Under the pieces are notes generated by a model that did no database searches, was not told where the DNA came from, and saw nothing but the letters and a program-made list of their open reading frames with translations. Made by a program: the position numbers and the translations under genes. From contig NZ_VHLG01000003.1 in assembly GCF_006516955.1 (NCBI RefSeq), positions 458,444 through 522,443 of the forward strand: a stretch of DNA of 64,000 bases. The letters run 5' to 3'. Position 1 is the first letter of the stretch. Every line of letters starts with the position of its first letter. The DNA comes from Martelella alba (GTDB lineage: Bacteria > Pseudomonadota > Alphaproteobacteria > Rhizobiales > Rhizobiaceae). Shown piece after piece: positions 1 through 16,354 of this stretch.

Positions 1-2821
1 TGGTCTTGGCGACGAAGGGAACGGTCCGCGACGCGCGCGGATTGACCTCAAGGATGAAAATCGTGCCGTCCTTGATGGCATATTGCACATTCATCAAGCC
101 CTTGACGTTCAGCGCCAGCGCCAGTTCGCGGGTCTGCACTTCCAGCTCATCGAGAATGGTGGCGGAAAGCGTATGCGGCGGCAACGAGCAGGCACTGTCA
201 CCGGAGTGGATACCGGCTTCTTCGATATGTTCCATGATGCCGGCAATGAAGACGTTCTTGCCATCGCAAAGGCAATCGACGTCCACTTCTGTGGCATTGG
301 TCAGGTAGCTGTCGAACAGGAGCGGGTTCTTGCCCAGCATCGTGTTGATCTGACCGGTCTTGTCGTTCGGATAGCGCTGCTTGATGTCTTCGGTCACCAG
401 TTCCGGCACGGTTTCCAGAAGATAGGTCGAAAGTCCGGCGTCGTCATGGACGATCTGCATGGCGCGGCCACCAAGAACGTAAGACGGGCGCACGACCAGC
501 GGGAAGCCGATCTCACCGGCGACGAGGCGCGCCTGCTCGACCGAATAGGCAATGCCATTTTCCGGCTGGTTCAGTTCCAGCTTGACCAGCAGTTTCTGGA
601 ACCGGTCGCGGTCTTCGGCGAGGTCGATCATGTCCGGCGCAGTGCCAAGGATCGGAATACCGTTCTTCTCCAGCGCTTCGGCAAGCTTCAGTGGTGTCTG
701 GCCGCCAAACTGGACAATCACCCCGACCACTTCGCCGTCTTCCTGCTCGGCGCGCATGATCTCGATCACGTCTTCGGCCGTCAGCGGCTCGAAATAGAGG
801 CGGTCGGATGTGTCGTAGTCGGTGGAAACCGTTTCCGGATTGCAGTTGACCATGATGGCTTCAAAGCCCGCATCCTTCAGCGCGAAGGCGGCATGGCAGC
901 AGCAATAGTCGAACTCGATACCCTGGCCGATCCGGTTCGGGCCGCCGCCGAGAATGACGACCTTTTTGCGATTGGAGATCTGGGCTTCTGACCGGGTGGC
1001 GCCGGCAAAGGGCAGTTCATAGGTCGAATACATGTATGCCGTCGGCGAGGCGAATTCGGCCGCGCAGGTGTCGATACGCTTGAAAACCGGGCGCACGCCG
1101 AGACGGTTGCGCAGCTGGGCCACTTCCTTCGGCCGGCCATGGGTGAGGCTGGCAAGCCGTTGGTCGGAAAAGCCCATCGATTTCAGCATGCGCATATTGT
1201 CGGCATCTTCCGGAAGGCCGTGCTTGCGGAGCTTTTCTTCCATATCGACGATGCCCTTGATCTGGGCCAGAAACCACGGGTCGATCTTGGAATGTTCGTG
1301 GACTTCTTCTTCGGAGAAGCCGAGGCGGAAGGCTTGGGCAACCATGCGCAGGCGCTCCGGCGTCGCCGTGCCGATGGCCGCGCGTACGGCGTTGAAGGGC
1401 TCGCCGGTGTCATAGCCGGGGATTTCGATCTCATCGAGACCGGTCAGACCGGTCTCCAGACCGCGCAGTGCCTTCTGCAGCGATTCCTGGAAGGTGCGGC
1501 CGATGGCCATGACTTCGCCGACCGACTTCATCGCCGTCGTCAGCGTATGTTCGGCGCCGGGGAATTTCTCAAAGGCAAAGCGCGGGATCTTGGTGACGAC
1601 ATAGTCGATCGACGGTTCGAAAGAGGCCGGTGTGGCGCCGCCTGTAATGTCGTTTTCCAGCTCGTCCAGCGTATAGCCGACGGCGAGCTTGGCCGCGACC
1701 TTGGCGATCGGGAAACCGGTTGCCTTGGAGGCGAGTGCGGAGGAGCGCGAAACGCGCGGGTTCATTTCGATAACGACCAGACGTCCGTCCTTCGGGTTAA
1801 CGGCGAACTGAACATTCGAGCCGCCGGTTTCAACGCCGATCTCACGCAGCACCGCAAGCGAGGCGTTGCGCATCATCTGGTATTCCTTGTCGGTCAAGGT
1901 CAGCGCCGGTGCAACGGTGATCGAATCGCCCGTATGGACACCCATCGGATCGATATTCTCGATCGAGCAAATGATGATGCAGTTGTCCGCCTTGTCGCGA
2001 ACAACTTCCATTTCATATTCCTTCCAGCCGAGGACTGATTCTTCGATCAGCACTTCGGTGGTGGGGGATGCATCGAGGCCGGAACCGACAATCTCGAAGA
2101 ATTCCGAGCGGTTATAGGCAATGCCGCCACCCGTGCCGCCAAGCGTGAAGGAGGGGCGGATAATCGCCGGCAGGCCGATCACGTCAAGCGCCTGGGCGGC
2201 AATCGCCATGGCATGCGCCATATAGCGCTGCTTGCGGTCGGTATTGCCGAGGTTCCACTTGTTTTCCAGCGCATCCAGCGCCGTGTCGAGAGCATCGCCG
2301 GACAGTGTGGTGCGCAGCTCTGCGCGTTCGGCCTCGTGTTCCTGGCGATCCTTGTCCTTGATCTCGGTGGCATTGGCGAGCATCGAACGCGGCGTTTCCA
2401 GCCCGATCTTGGCCATGGCCTCGCGGAACAGTGCGCGGTCCTCTGCCTTGTCGATGGCATCCGGCTTGGCGCCGATCATTTCGACATTGTAGCGCTCGAG
2501 AACGCCCATGCGGCGCAGCGATAGTGCGGTGTTGAGCGCGGTCTGGCCGCCCATGGTCGGCAGCAGCGCGTCAGGCCGTTCCTTGGCGATGATCTTGGCG
2601 ACGACTTCCGGTGTGATCGGCTCGACATAGGTCGCATCCGCAAGGCCGGGATCGGTCATGATCGTCGCCGGGTTGGAATTGACGAGGATCACACGATAGC
2701 CCTCGGCGCGCAGCGCCTTGCAGGCCTGTGCACCGGAATAGTCAAACTCACAGGCCTGGCCGATGACAATCGGCCCCGCGCCGATAATGAGGATGGACTT
2801 GATATCTTGGCGCTTTGGCAT
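1..2821 (-). CDS. carB: Carbamoyl-phosphate synthase large subunit, 3' end outside window
   Basis: Large subunit of carbamoyl-phosphate synthase. With CarA it makes carbamoyl phosphate from glutamine, bicarbonate and 2 ATP for pyrimidine and arginine synthesis. About 940 residues are present; the family is about 1,160, so the C-terminal oligomerisation/allosteric domain lies beyond the window edge. The start [22 protein letters not shown] is the family start. The first ATP-grasp half carries [12 protein letters not shown] and [18 protein letters not shown]. The second half begins near [21 protein letters not shown] and has [12 protein letters not shown] stretch of about 30 residues between the first-domain helices ([18 protein letters not shown]) is, from memory, typical of rhizobial CarB. 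carA lies 3.4 kb upstream on the same strand but is separated by plus-strand genes, so they are not one operon. Confidence 0.97.
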
Positions 2822-3168
2822 GGGTGCTTCCGTTTGTTCTCGTTCCTGCATCAAAAACCGGCACGGAAAACCGGCCGGCTTGAGCGTCGTCGCAAATTTC
2901 TAGGCTAGGAGGGCCTTATAGGCAAAACATTACCCGAACGGAACCCCGAAAATGGCCGAAATTGGGGATTGGGCAGGCAAATGCCGAACCGAAGCCTGTC
3001 CGACCGGGACTGAAACCGGGCAAATTTTCGTGAAAGTCGGATCTGACAAGCTTCGTGGCAAAGGGATGTGCAGAGTTGATCTGGGCGAAAAGAATCACAT
3101 TTGCCAAATCACAAATGAACCAAATCACCGCCAGCAACGTTTACAGAGCAAACAAGAGGAGTAACAAC
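2822..3168. other. Intergenic region between carB and the small membrane ORF
   Basis: A 347-bp stretch with no convincing gene. It must hold the leader and promoter of carB on the minus strand and of the small plus-strand ORF. On the minus strand a TATAAG lies near 2918-2923 but lacks a convincing -35. Short open frames here have no ribosome binding site and no family-like sequence. Confidence 0.5.
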
Positions 3169-3291
3169 ATGATGGAATATCTGCCTCTCATCGCTTTTCA
3201 GTCGCTGTTTGCCGCGGCCGGCCTCGGCGTGCTCTACCGCATCGTCGCTACGAAAAATACTGAAGCGGGGCGCGCACGCCACCTGCGCTGA
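3169..3291 (+). CDS. 40-residue single-span membrane peptide, unknown function
   Basis: Not recognised. The frame encodes 40 residues beginning MMEYLPLIAFQSLFAAAGLG, with one hydrophobic span of about 20 residues (5-24) and then a short basic tail ending RARHLR. A good ribosome binding site (AGGAGT, 3157-3162) precedes two adjacent ATG codons, and a stem-loop follows the stop. The site and the protein-like hydrophobic profile are the reasons to believe it is translated. The coding strand differs from carB upstream. It could be a small inner-membrane peptide; no function is inferred. Confidence 0.55.
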   Translation: MMEYLPLIAFQSLFAAAGLGVLYRIVATKNTEAGRARHLR

Positions 3292-3309
3292 TCCGGCCTG
3301 TGCTTTCGG

Positions 3310-3334
3310 ATGGCAGGTCGTTCCGGCCTGCCAT
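3310..3334 (+). terminator. Stem-loop after the small ORF
   Basis: Arms ATGGCAGG and CCTGCCAT pair perfectly around a 9-base loop, 18 bases after the stop codon. The following bases (TCTGCTTGAC) are only moderately T-rich, so it is a weak intrinsic terminator candidate. Confidence 0.45.
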
Positions 3335-3404
3335 TCTGCTTGACTTGACGCGAAGGCATCATGATCCCATCTCAGGCTTACCTGCCCATTGAAGGTTTCG
3401 CGTC

Positions 3405-4082
3405 ATGATCCTTGTTCATTATCTCGAAGATTCCCGCGCCCACCGCATTCTGTGGCTCCTGGAGGAACTTGGTGTCGATTACGACATCCGTGTCTATCGC
3501 CGGGCTGAAGACATGCGTGCGCCGGACGAGCTAAAGCAGGTGCATCCGCTCGGCAAATCACCGGTTATCGAGGACGGTGACCGGGTTATCGCCGAAAGCG
3601 GCGCGATCATTGAATATCTTCTCGATACCTATGGCCAGGCTTCCGGTCTCCGGCCTGAGCCGGGGAGTGAAGCTTTGCAGCGCTATCGCTACTGGCTGCA
3701 TTATTCGGAAGGCTCGGCCATGCCGCTCTTGGTCATGAAATTGGTCTTTTCCAGGCTGCCTGAGCGGGTTCCCTTCCTTTTGCGTCCGGTTGTCCGGGCG
3801 GTGTCGCGTGGCGTTATGGGAGCCTTGACGGATCCGCAACTGAAGGAACATGGCGGGTTCTGGGAAGAGACGCTTGCCCGCAGTGGCTGGTTTGCCGGTG
3901 ATCAGTTTTCGGCGGCTGATATTATGATGAGTTTCCCCGTCGAAGTTGGCATGGAGCGCGTCCCTTTCGATCAGCGCCCGCAGGCCGTTCTTGGCTGGCT
4001 GGCCGAAATCCATGCGCGGCCCGGCTATCGCCATGCGATCCAGCGTGGCGGTGCCTATCGCTATGGAGCAAAGGCAGAGTAG
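3405..4082 (+). CDS. Glutathione S-transferase family protein
   Basis: A 225-residue cytosolic GST-like protein. The N-terminal thioredoxin-like domain (about 1-80) begins MILVHYLEDSRAHRILWLLE and has the cis-Pro region SPVIEDGD followed by VIAESGAIIEYL, which matches the glutathione-binding E-S motif. The rest is helical C-terminal domain with GWFAGDQFSAADIMM, the usual N-capping region. The S/R-rich first turn (SRAHRILWLLEEL) suggests a bacterial beta- or related-class GST. Substrate cannot be told. A MATE exporter follows on the same strand within 90 bp, so co-transcription is likely and a detoxification role is a reasonable but unproven inference. Confidence 0.85.
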   Translation: MILVHYLEDSRAHRILWLLEELGVDYDIRVYRRAEDMRAPDELKQVHPLGKSPVIEDGDRVIAESGAIIEYLLDTYGQASGLRPEPGSEALQRYRYWLHYSEGSAMPLLVMKLVFSRLPERVPFLLRPVVRAVSRGVMGALTDPQLKEHGGFWEETLARSGWFAGDQFSAADIMMSFPVEVGMERVPFDQRPQAVLGWLAEIHARPGYRHAIQRGGAYRYGAKAE

Positions 4083-10766: not shown

Positions 10767-12812
<2,046 letters not shown>

Positions 12813-12840
12813 TCCAGTAGAACGCTGATTTCGAATGAAG

Positions 12841-12873
12841 AAAACCCGGTCTTACGGCCGGGTTTTCGTTTTT
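12841..12873 (+). terminator. rpoD terminator
   Basis: Perfect stem AAAACCCGG/CCGGGTTTT followed by CGTTTTT, 28 bases after the rpoD stop. Confidence 0.88.
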
Positions 12874-13045
12874 ATCTCAGAACATCTATCGATACTGGGC
12901 GTTATCCTCGGGCTTGATCCGAGCTTCCAGACGTAAATTGCCGGTAACGCTTTTGCTGGCTTTCAAGTGGCAAATAAGGCGCTGAAACAATTGTCTTTAA
13001 CCCTGCTATGCGTAAGACTACCCACAAAAGCTATAGGGGCAGGCA

Positions 13046-15706
13046 ATGGCAAATGCTGGGGCATCGGGTTCTCGTGGAGATGGCAGACCGGCGTTGCCGG
13101 AATTTGGTGACGATGATCAAATCAATCAAAGACGTCTCGGAGAGTATTTGCAGAATTGCACGCGAGATGAAGTTTCTCTTGTCTCCTGGCGATCAACCTT
13201 GCGAGTCTTTCCTATTCTCTCGCTAGGAAGATACCCGGAGCCCCATAGTGACGGGCAGGATTCGGTGCGTTCCGGTCTTTTGGTGTTATTTAGATGGAAC
13301 TTTCTGTCTTGGGTTGGGCATTCATATCCAGATCAGAATATAGCTATTTCCACAAATGCTGGCTCGAATTTCGAAGGTTCCACCTTCGCGAATTTCACTT
13401 TCGCGGAGGCTGACGATTCCACTCCCGGCGGAGCGTCTCAAGCCGTAGCCCATCACGTATCTACTGCGAGGAGCTTTTTCTCGGGTTTTGATAAATCCTT
13501 CGGACCTGCGTTTGGTAGTTCCCGGTCTATCGCCATCGCTAAGGCAATTTGGGCACGCGTGCTGGCAGACCTAGAGCTGCTCCAATCCCGAACCACCACC
13601 GCTTTGCTTGCGGCGCCGCTTTGGCATGACGAAAAACCCGTATTTTTCGCGTCTGTCGAGGCGCAGCTTAACGACCGATGCCGAGAGCTTGGATCTGACT
13701 GGACGCTTGTTTATGCATTCTATATTGCCATGCGAGATGGAGTTGACCCCTTCGGGCTGCATGGCGATGACTTGGAGAATTTTGTCGTTTCGCTTGCAAG
13801 CGAAAATGATGCTTTCTGGGATCGCACCGAAAGCCGAGGCGGTCCGGATGCTGTGGTGGCTGATATTGCCGCGCGTTTGCAGTCTGCGCAGGCAGGTATG
13901 GGGTCTGCGCATTATCTGAATGCAGATGGGATTGATGCCTCTGTCGATGATCTTGACCGTGCCAGCCTGGCATTCGCGCTGGCCGGGCGGCTCAACCTGA
14001 TCTGGGATGCTTTGAATCCTGTTGAGGGCGGCAAGGAACAAAGTCTTCAGCCCGGATTTGTGGTTCATCTTGACGCGCCATGGGGTGGCGGCAAGACCAC
14101 ATTCGCGGGCTTCCTTGAATACATTCTCAATCCTTTCAAGCATTATGTATGGCCCGGTTGGCTTGAGAGAATACTCCTCCCACTGGATGGAAGTATCTGG
14201 CCAGCCAAGTTCCGGCGACCATGGCATATCGTTCATTTCAATGCCTGGCGACATCAGCATGTGAAGCCGCAATGGTGGACCTTTTCCGAGGCCATTCGCA
14301 AGCAATGCACCGAAGCGGATTATCGGGAGGTATGCAACAACAAGTGCAGGCTGGACATGCCCGTCGCGCCGTATGAGTATCGTGACGCTCCTGTTCCTTT
14401 TCTTCAGTATTGTTGGCGTTGGATTCGACAAAAATACTGGGAAATTTTTACGCCGGATGTGCTGAGCCAAGCGATCGCAGCAGTTCTTTTTCTCAGTGTA
14501 GCTGCAGGGCTGTATTTATTCGGTTTTCTGGGTGATGAAAAATGCAGATTCAACCTTTCTGTCAATGCAACGGTGTTTGCTTTTTTCGCGTTTTTGGGTG
14601 GTGCATCTGGCGTCTGGGCAATCTTCAAAACGGTCACCCGTAGCTTGTTTCCCGGTACGCCTGCAGCAGCCAAGGCTTATGCGCTTGGTGCAGGTGACCC
14701 ACTGGACCGGTTTCGGACTCACTTTGCGAAAACGATCAAAGGATTTCGTCGCCCAGTTCTGGTTATCGTTGACGATCTGGACCGCTGTGATCCGGAATAT
14801 GTTGTTTCGCTGCTTCATGGCATGCAGACAATCCTCACCAGCCCCCGCGTGATCTATCTGTTGCTTGGTGATAAGGACTGGATCGAGCAGGCCTTCACCC
14901 AGGTTTACAAGAAGCTTGGAGACATTGAAGTCGGTTGCGAGCACACGTTAGGTGCGCGCTTCGTGGAAAAAGGGATTCAGTTATCGCTTGTCTTGCCGGA
15001 TTTCGGAGAGAAGGAGAAAGTGAGCTATGTTCGCAGATTGCTCGGTGTGAGTGCCCAAGTTGATCCCGAAGATAGGTCAGAGAAAGATCTGAGCCTGACC
15101 GATGAGCTGAATGGGGTTCTGAATGAGAGATCTCTCATACTGCGTGAGCAGAAAGCGAAAGAATTCGCCAATAACCGTGGGATCAGCTCCCAGCAAAAGC
15201 GTGAGCTTAACCGTCAGCTCTCGATCAAGGCTGCCTATGATGAACAGAGCGAGCAATTAACCCGTCATGAGCTTGAAGGGCTGGTTCCGTTGTTGCCTCC
15301 CAATCCACGACAAATCAAGCGGATTATCAACACTGTCTCTCTGATGACCGAAGTGGGGCGATTGGGCCGCGCGTCCATTTCGTTGGGTTCCCGCGACTGG
15401 AAAATTCTGGCGCGCTGGGTGGTCCTGTCGGTCGAATGGCCGCGTTCGTGGTTTACGCTCAGTAAGCATCCAGAACTGGCGGATCATCTCGCAACGAACG
15501 ATATTGATGCGCTTGAGGGTATCAGCGCACGCGACAAGGCAATCGTGAAAACTCTTCAGAACTCGGACTTTGTGCGACGAATTCTGGTTCCTGAAAACAG
15601 CACGTCCGAGTGGTCCCCCGAGCCAATCCTCTCTGAACATGTCAGATGGCTGCGCGAGCTGATGCCACCGACCAGCGGCGCGGAATTGGATGTCGATTCA
15701 AAATGA
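13046..15706 (+). CDS. KAP family P-loop NTPase with two internal membrane spans
   Basis: 886-residue predicted membrane-anchored NTPase of the KAP group. Walker A is APWGGGKTT (344-352). The KAP signature HFNAWRHQ is at 397-404. Two hydrophobic spans (about 473-493 and 508-528) are inserted between Walker A and Walker B. Walker B with acidic pair is VLVIVDDLDRC (571-581), and PPNPRQIKRIIN (751-762) is the sensor/arginine-type motif. This order is the hallmark of KAP proteins. The first 340 residues match no family I recognise and may be the sensor or effector part. Base composition is clearly more AT-rich than neighbouring rpoD and purN, which suggests transfer. It stands alone between the rpoD terminator and purN, with its stop overlapping the end of purN by 9 bases. 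Some KAP proteins sit in bacterial defence loci; that role here is only a hypothesis. Confidence 0.85.
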   Translation: MANAGASGSRGDGRPALPEFGDDDQINQRRLGEYLQNCTRDEVSLVSWRSTLRVFPILSLGRYPEPHSDGQDSVRSGLLVLFRWNFLSWVGHSYPDQNIAISTNAGSNFEGSTFANFTFAEADDSTPGGASQAVAHHVSTARSFFSGFDKSFGPAFGSSRSIAIAKAIWARVLADLELLQSRTTTALLAAPLWHDEKPVFFASVEAQLNDRCRELGSDWTLVYAFYIAMRDGVDPFGLHGDDLENFVVSLASENDAFWDRTESRGGPDAVVADIAARLQSAQAGMGSAHYLNADGIDASVDDLDRASLAFALAGRLNLIWDALNPVEGGKEQSLQPGFVVHLDAPWGGGKTTFAGFLEYILNPFKHYVWPGWLERILLPLDGSIWPAKFRRPWHIVHFNAWRHQHVKPQWWTFSEAIRKQCTEADYREVCNNKCRLDMPVAPYEYRDAPVPFLQYCWRWIRQKYWEIFTPDVLSQAIAAVLFLSVAAGLYLFGFLGDEKCRFNLSVNATVFAFFAFLGGASGVWAIFKTVTRSLFPGTPAAAKAYALGAGDPLDRFRTHFAKTIKGFRRPVLVIVDDLDRCDPEYVVSLLHGMQTILTSPRVIYLLLGDKDWIEQAFTQVYKKLGDIEVGCEHTLGARFVEKGIQLSLVLPDFGEKEKVSYVRRLLGVSAQVDPEDRSEKDLSLTDELNGVLNERSLILREQKAKEFANNRGISSQQKRELNRQLSIKAAYDEQSEQLTRHELEGLVPLLPPNPRQIKRIINTVSLMTEVGRLGRASISLGSRDWKILARWVVLSVEWPRSWFTLSKHPELADHLATNDIDALEGISARDKAIVKTLQNSDFVRRILVPENSTSEWSPEPILSEHVRWLRELMPPTSGAELDVDSK

Positions 15707-16354
15707 GACGATCTTCTGCGTCTCATTCAGTCCGAAGCCCTTTCCAAACACCGCCCTCTCACCCTCCATCCGGACCTTGCCCTCGGCGAAGCGCTTCAGT
15801 GCTGCCGGGTAGAGCTGGTGCTCGACGGTGAGGATGCGGGCGGCGAGCGTTTCGGCGTCGTCGCCGGGGAGGATCGGCACGGCGGCCTGGCCGATGACCG
15901 GGCCTTCATCCATGCCTTCGGTGACGAAATGCACTGTGCAGCCAGCAATCCGCATGCCGGCATCGATGGCGCGTTGATGCGTGTGGAGGCCCGGGAAAAG
16001 CGGCAGAAGTGACGGGTGGATATTGATGATCCGTCCTTCATAGGCGCGGATGAAATCGCCGGAGAGAATGCGCATAAAGCCGGCAAGGCAGATGATGTCC
16101 GGATTGAGGGCTGCCAGTGCTGTCAGCATGGCGGCTTCGTGGGCGGCCTTGCTGTCGAACTGCTTTCGCGGGAAGGCGAAGGTTTCAAGGCCAAGCGCTG
16201 CTGCTTTTTGCAGGCCTCCTGCGTCGGGCTTGTCGGCAATGACAGCGACGATTTCGGCCGGAAAATCCGGCGACTGACAGGCTTCGGCAAGCTTCACCAT
16301 ATTGGAGCCGCTTCCGGAAATAAAAACGACAACCCGTTTTTTCGACCCGCTCAT
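15698..16354 (-). CDS. purN: Phosphoribosylglycinamide formyltransferase
   Basis: 218-residue GAR transformylase, which uses 10-formyl-THF to formylate GAR in purine synthesis. The N-terminus [18 protein letters not shown] is the family P-loop. [16 protein letters not shown] and [20 protein letters not shown] carry the catalytic Asn/His region, with the later Asp in DEGPVIGQA. It overlaps purM by four bases (ATGA), so they form one operon purM-purN. The 3' end overlaps the convergent KAP gene tail to tail. Confidence 0.96.

Follow-up and report, generated by a model that had tools for sequence, protein, structure and literature searches.

A KAP NTPase gene behind rpoD in Martelella alba: a helical N-terminal module with exchangeable C-terminal partners as a candidate immune switch

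The stretch of DNA analysed here (the window; 64,000 nucleotides of Martelella alba, contig NZ_VHLG01000003.1) encodes, between rpoD and purN, a KAP NTPase that is predicted to be membrane-anchored and that begins with a helical module of its own. In Alphaproteobacteria, this module is fused to KAP NTPases of two divergent groups, to TIR, to DUF6161, and to unclassified tails, and in two same-genus pairs the C-terminal part has been exchanged in place. We cautiously lean towards reading the window gene as a one-gene immune switch, i.e., an exchangeable antiviral gene whose module would detect infection while its KAP part would turn on the membrane of the infected cell itself.

The gene is an uninterrupted open reading frame with an ATG start, and its features are as follows.

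13046..15706, + strand: KAP NTPase gene with N-terminal helical module, 886 aa
14036..15349, + strand: KAP_NTPase domain, residues 331-768
14084..14098, + strand: Walker A, GGGKT, residues 347-351
14237..14251, + strand: FNAWR motif, residues 398-402
14444..14500, + strand: predicted membrane helix 1, residues 467-485 by hydropathy (model helix 470-491)
14570..14626, + strand: predicted membrane helix 2, residues 509-527 by hydropathy (model helix 504-534)
14771..14785, + strand: Walker B, DDLDR, residues 576-580
15299..15322, + strand: PNPRQIKR, residues 752-759

A sequence-only reading of this DNA had described an 886-residue KAP NTPase between rpoD and purN, and this is borne out by the intact frame and by the Pfam family KAP_NTPase (PF07693), which scores 102.6 bits (cut-off 20; E 3.1e-29). 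The motifs it had listed (Walker A, NAWR, the DDLDR Walker B, and PNPRQIKR) were all located in the protein, and its two membrane spans between Walker A and Walker B recur, as predictions, both as hydropathy peaks (1.74 and 1.81, thus of moderate hydrophobicity only) and as model helices. Membrane helices inserted at this position are typical of KAP NTPases. An extra copy of DDLDR is found at residues 301-305, within the linker that precedes the KAP domain. With a GC content of 0.526 and a GC3 of 0.534, compared with GC3 values of 0.668-0.742 for eight neighbouring genes, the gene also departs in composition from its housekeeping neighbours, as had been noted. It is the sole KAP match of its genome.

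RpoD, PurN, PurM, DnaG, and CarA of the window were each identified over NCBIfam cut-offs, with RpoD and DnaG upstream of the KAP gene and PurN and PurM downstream on the opposite strand. No other gene was called in the rpoD-purN interval, and the neighbours are housekeeping genes, with no defence island. No sigma-70-type promoter was found in 12780-15850. None of 60 relatives (12 congeners, with 24 genomes each from the family and the order) carries the KAP protein at E <= 1e-10, so that general presence at the locus among relatives, which the sequence-only reading had named as a refutation, does not apply; relatives in Cucumibacter and Rhizobium halophytocola do, however, lie behind rpoD as well. 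The gene, present in one of the 61 genomes searched, is patchily distributed. Comparison with the nearest sampled congener delimits the segment that differs.

12840..12867, + strand: terminator-like hairpin 3' of rpoD (12-pair stem, T run), left edge of the replaced segment
12865..15745, no strand: segment of ~2.9 kb replaced relative to the nearest sampled congener (genome G005, locus L094)
15698..15745, - strand: purN 3' end inside the replaced segment, last ~15 codons

In this blastn comparison, homology breaks off within the rpoD terminator hairpin (at 12864) and is regained at 15746, in the last part of purN; accordingly, the window PurN matches that of L094 over residues 1-203 only and the last ~15 codons differ, whereas RpoD is 99% identical. 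The stop codons of the KAP gene and purN overlap tail to tail by 9 nt. Between rpoD and purN, L094 carries HXXEE-like and TetR genes (L094 11575-12856) in place of the KAP gene, the HXXEE-like match lying below cut-off at E 4.6e-4. Together with the absence from all relatives and the atypical composition, this other cargo between the same genes upholds the earlier view of an accessory gene. In two further congeners (L095 and L102) the interval measures ~257 and ~105 nt. Nine of the 12 congeners have rpoD and purN apart from each other in the stretches fetched, and one of these nine (L119) has a YcxB-like gene (2521-3675) immediately 3' of rpoD. The stretch 3' of rpoD thus varies between species of the genus, as its cargo differs among them. 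Such variety is what would be expected if the DNA after the rpoD terminator merely tolerated insertions, so that the KAP gene was one of many unrelated cargoes and its linkage functionally meaningless. We hold this possible though doubtful, for reasons given below with the linkage data.

Regarding the N-terminal 340 residues that the sequence-only reading could not place, the extent has to be corrected: the N-terminal part runs to ~285 residues, one module accounting for ~265 of them, and is followed by a linker at ~291-325. The part can also be placed, as a module that recurs in other proteins, although no Pfam family and no convincing PDB counterpart were found for it.

13106..13900, + strand: N-terminal helical module, residues 21-285 (profile A3, E 1.4e-89; the nine rows of A3 are eight relatives and the window sequence)
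13343..13519, + strand: low-confidence middle of the module, residues 100-158 (pLDDT <50, full model)
13916..14020, + strand: linker/helix N-terminal to the KAP domain, residues 291-325, conserved within this KAP group

Modelled alone (54 rows), the module is all-helical with a pLDDT of 81.2 and a pTM of 0.81, and the PDB gave no convincing match to a solved structure. No Pfam family was found for it: the query matches KAP alone, and 33 KAP relatives compared with Pfam match P-loop families alone at E < 0.02. A match to a well-known non-defence domain, which the sequence-only reading had named in advance as speaking against its proposal, was found in none of the libraries searched. The middle of the module (~100-158) corresponds to an alanine-rich stretch that varies in length in many relatives (alignment A1), and the near-invariant positions R49, R53, D175, W193, W225, and W258 are kept in the window protein.

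The homology search scored the 7994 candidates sharing most words and gave 131 proteins at E <= 1e-3, the best 120 of which were used. The 75 closest KAP relatives (P0002-P0076) are 32-46% identical to the window protein and keep the KAP motifs. The module profile matches 46 of these 75 (eight of the 46 being rows of the profile itself) and 48 among the 120 best of the 131 homologues, the query included. Closest KAP relatives without the module are either short or have other content in the N-terminal slot. In P0052, P0054, and P0063, the three with a caspase label, this is Peptidase_C14 (caspase-like) over the cut-off; by eye, GHG is present in two of the three and the region of the catalytic cysteine is apparently altered in all three, and these caspase-like N-termini are possibly inactive. 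Several other KAP relatives have LuxR-type helix-turn-helix labels at the same slot. That the window gene is a decaying or neutral passenger, as its low GC3 and its presence in a single genome might suggest, has a very slim chance in our estimate, given the full-length frame and the retention of the KAP motifs and near-invariant module positions at such divergence.

Searching with the N-terminal profile among proteins of about the size of the module gave 12 matches. Three of them contain TIR (P0123, P0127, and P0132, in the last of which TIR stands in front), four (P0121, P0128, P0130, and P0131) end, by eye, in a tail with a hydrophobic segment, and five are mainly the module alone, one of these (P0129) with the module halves in reverse order. 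A GHNxPP- or NHPP-like motif was also seen by eye between module and hydrophobic tail in P0121, P0128, P0130, and L218. Because the module is common to many proteins with different outputs, it is more likely a common sensor or adaptor than an effector. The earlier suggestion of a new sensor or effector thus keeps its novelty, as no library entry was found, and loses some weight on the side of the effector.

Across genome samples that overlap one another, and with the own genome counted in each, the module was detected in 45 of 397 order genomes (E limit 1e-5) and, at a limit of 1e-8, in 26 of 394 family, eight of 385 class-sample, and seven of 299 phylum-sample genomes, with all of the phylum-sample matches belonging to the same class. 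In the window genome, the module profile matches the KAP gene alone at E <= 10. Most genomes likewise gave one module gene, G1313, G1147, G1056, and G623 being among those with at least two; as at most 6-8 candidates per genome were scored in these group searches, the copy numbers are lower bounds. A scheme in which partners recognise each other via shared modules is accordingly not general.

Inspection of the loci revealed 13 cases among 40 order loci (seven genera and six families) in which rpoD is followed by a module gene in the same orientation, with the open reading frame beginning 104-3230 nt past rpoD, these gaps being measured to the stop-to-stop frame and not to the start codon. The 13 loci are not independent, since g99 supplies four of them. 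The same arrangement is seen in nine of 20 family regions (eight genera), in one of which the module is 6.9 kb past an rpoD cut by the contig end, and in one of nine regions from other orders (G623, with the order carA-yqeY-dnaG-rpoD-module); in L196, the module gene sits in the same neighbourhood, between carA and carB. The 40 order regions come from 44 non-own genomes with the module (G177, G239, G382, and G407 were left out), and the 20 family regions cover 17 of 25 non-own genomes (without G1076, G1165, G1184, G1207, G1209, G1220, G1243, and G1355). As some regions are cut by contig ends (e.g., L165, L168, L177, L185, L187, and L190), these linkage counts are lower bounds. For a site of ~3 kb in multi-megabase genomes, chance would by our arithmetic place far less than one in 40 loci there, although related genomes are not independent.

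It is the module, and not KAP as such, that is linked to rpoD, since module-bearing KAP genes are mostly elsewhere. Of 18 named loci with a module-bearing KAP gene, just two (L005 and L008) are linked, and the other 16 are not beside rpoD within the flanks examined; two named KAP relatives, in Cucumibacter marinus and Rhizobium halophytocola, sit behind dnaG-rpoD. Away from rpoD are also three of the four motif-found module-KAP genes of the order set (L165, L177, and L178, two of them cut by contig ends), all three of the family set (L250, L255, and L267), and L212 from the other orders, with L177, L250, and L267 being repeats of named loci. As controls, eight loci of the KAP group that lack the module and 52 further KAP loci were inspected, and no RpoD was found in the flanks examined. 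With regard to a mere insertion site, the predominance of module-bearing KAP genes at other places is in its favour, as is tRNA-Met downstream of the module gene in ten of the 25 rpoD-linked loci scanned (L158, L159, L160, L163, L164, L169, L172, L253, L268, and L008). Against it, the cargo is not random, for the same module recurs behind rpoD in seven genera of the order set, eight of the family set, and another order, and KAP genes without the module were never met there (0/60 loci examined).

What follows the module behind rpoD differs from locus to locus: KAP in the window, L005, L008, and L161; TIR in L180, L189, and L268; DUF6161 in L169; and elsewhere a trailing sequence without a Pfam match over the cut-off. 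Here, C-terminal clusters are single-linkage and merged as loci were added, and the TIR and KAP labels rest on Pfam. Two same-genus pairs are instructive. L161 (KAP) and L167 (no KAP) have RpoD proteins 99% identical and flanking DNA that agrees by 92.5% in the 8.4 kb preceding the gene and by 95.2% in the 5.5 kb following it. Their modules are 92% identical at the start, 32% in the middle, and 70% at the end, and the similarity of their C-termini is not significant (best E 0.28). In the second pair, L166 and L180 (TIR), RpoD is again 99% identical and the flanks agree overall by 88-93%, with 93.3% over 6.9 kb in front and 89-93% in long collinear pieces behind, shorter repeat matches being lower. 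Module identity is 61% at the start, 30% in the middle, and 80% at the end, and the C-termini again lack significant similarity (best E 1.1). Flanks this similar around unlike C-termini and unlike module middles show directly that exchange took place at the locus. In L166 and L180, paralogous repeats of ~500 nt also lie on both sides of the module gene, with one open reading frame being Uma2-like by eye. Outputs also occur together, L268 having both a TIR domain and a tail of the L166 type (29% over 293 columns). At least two KAP groups have become fused to the module, since the KAP of L161 is ~26% identical to that of the window, as measured on locus L132.

Module distances track RpoD distances (Mantel r 0.61, with 0 of 2000 shuffles as high) in a set of 17 loci, comprising 16 behind rpoD (the window, L005, and L008 included) and L196, the bounds being rough for L172, L189, and L196. 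The locus is partly inherited and partly remodelled. The window module is about equally far from the 16 others (14-25% identity), and its donor is thus absent from the sample. Inheritance of part of the family with the locus would fit resident genes of any function, among them a housekeeping-like regulator of membrane or stress, whose KAP version would tune membrane or division physiology with no role against phage. The position of the KAP gene among housekeeping genes agrees with such a regulator; however, its absence from every relative searched, the 12 congeners included, does not, and the in-place exchange of C-termini for TIR and other modules fits poorly with a single physiological role, so that we consider a regulator of this kind unlikely. 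Swappable C-terminal modules resemble, on the other hand, those of polymorphic toxins, and the gene might accordingly be a toxin for strain conflict or an addiction module rather than antiphage. To this we assign a small chance, as the KAP gene is the only one called between rpoD and purN, which leaves no evident candidate for an immunity or antitoxin gene next to it.

As for known systems, the window protein shares with the KAP family (PF07693) the Walker A, NAWR, two predicted membrane helices, DDLDR, and late PNPRQIKR, and differs in that the N-terminal module and the conserved linker (291-325) fall outside the Pfam match. The closest fold to its KAP core is that of RdrA from the RADAR defence system (8hr8, 8fnt, and others), with which it has the RdrA-like NTPase fold in common at 13% identity; the match covers residues 286..669 and leaves the N-terminal module uncovered. 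In RADAR, RdrA has a partner gene in the same system, whereas none lies beside the window KAP gene, the adjacent genes being rpoD and purN. PifA, which mediates the exclusion of T7 by the F plasmid, gave a weak match in PADLOC (E 3.6e-10) that is confined to the Walker B region (residues 548-652). QatA of QatABCD also has a KAP domain and is matched weakly, at 62.8 bits, far below the NCBIfam equivalog cut-off of 600, and the flanking genes of the window are rpoD and purN and not qat genes. According to a preprint, defence by QatABCD is not fully disrupted when QatA is mutated or deleted (PMC12424860).

A further parallel is offered by systems with effector-associated domains (EADs), in which, according to a published survey, KAP ATPases displace STAND NTPases and a genome holds several copies of the domain, the NTPase carrying one and effectors the rest (PMC8195603). 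Compared with these EAD-NTPase systems, the window-type module similarly precedes an NTPase and, in other proteins, further effectors such as TIR; it differs in its ~265 residues, its variable middle, and its frequent place behind rpoD, and in that most sampled genomes, the window genome among them, have one module gene rather than several copies. With regard to the described EAD and death-like domains, Pfam gave P-loop families alone for the 33 KAP relatives and the PDB gave no match. KAP NTPases are known, as is their role against phage, and conflict systems built around modular NTPases have likewise been described; no description of the module, its placement at rpoD, its hypervariable core, or the in-place exchange of outputs was found in the libraries and open-access papers searched. 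The module, its link to rpoD, and the in-place swapping hence look new within these sources.

The immune reading draws on the sharing of one module by several outputs, its recurrence behind rpoD, the in-place swaps, the patchy distribution, the RdrA-like fold of the KAP core, and the KAP ATPases of EAD systems; an anti-phage role, as suggested earlier, is consistent with these observations. Weighing against it are the housekeeping neighbours, the many module-bearing KAP genes away from rpoD, the failure to find a sigma-70-type promoter, the moderate hydrophobicity of the membrane helices, the QatA result, the partial inheritance of the family with its locus, and the rarity of genomes with several module genes. 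If the gene is indeed an immune switch, infection would be the trigger and the variable middle of the module may help to recognise it. Thereupon, the KAP part would become able to bind ATP and would assemble in the manner of the RdrA rings, whose fold is similar, and the two inserted helices would permeabilise or remodel the inner membrane, such that the infected cell would be stopped before phage release. TIR versions could reach the same end by another route, as many TIR domains destroy NAD+. A more far-reaching version, which we regard as improbable, would have an undescribed immune family of Alphaproteobacteria, in which a helical sensor, constant but for its hypervariable core, resides behind rpoD and guards sigma-70 or RNA polymerase from phage takeover, while its killing module (KAP membrane ATPase, TIR, or others) is swapped in place between close relatives. 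Were the immune reading true, such genes could be found in many Alphaproteobacteria by inspecting the DNA behind rpoD, and close relatives with a common sensor and common flanks but unlike effectors would amount to natural domain-swap experiments. It would also provide a testable single-gene system for KAP NTPases, whose defence role is poorly understood, and raise the question of why an immune gene stays beside a sigma-factor gene.

Lastly, a PADLOC scan of 104 neighbour genes, run without a matched control, returned matches to MzaA, which are apparently RpoD itself (the window RpoD also matches MzaA, below the cut-off), and to a primase-like RT, which are probably dnaG. One locus, L252, has two module genes behind rpoD on the same strand (410-2542 and 11312-13498), the farther of which carries TIR.
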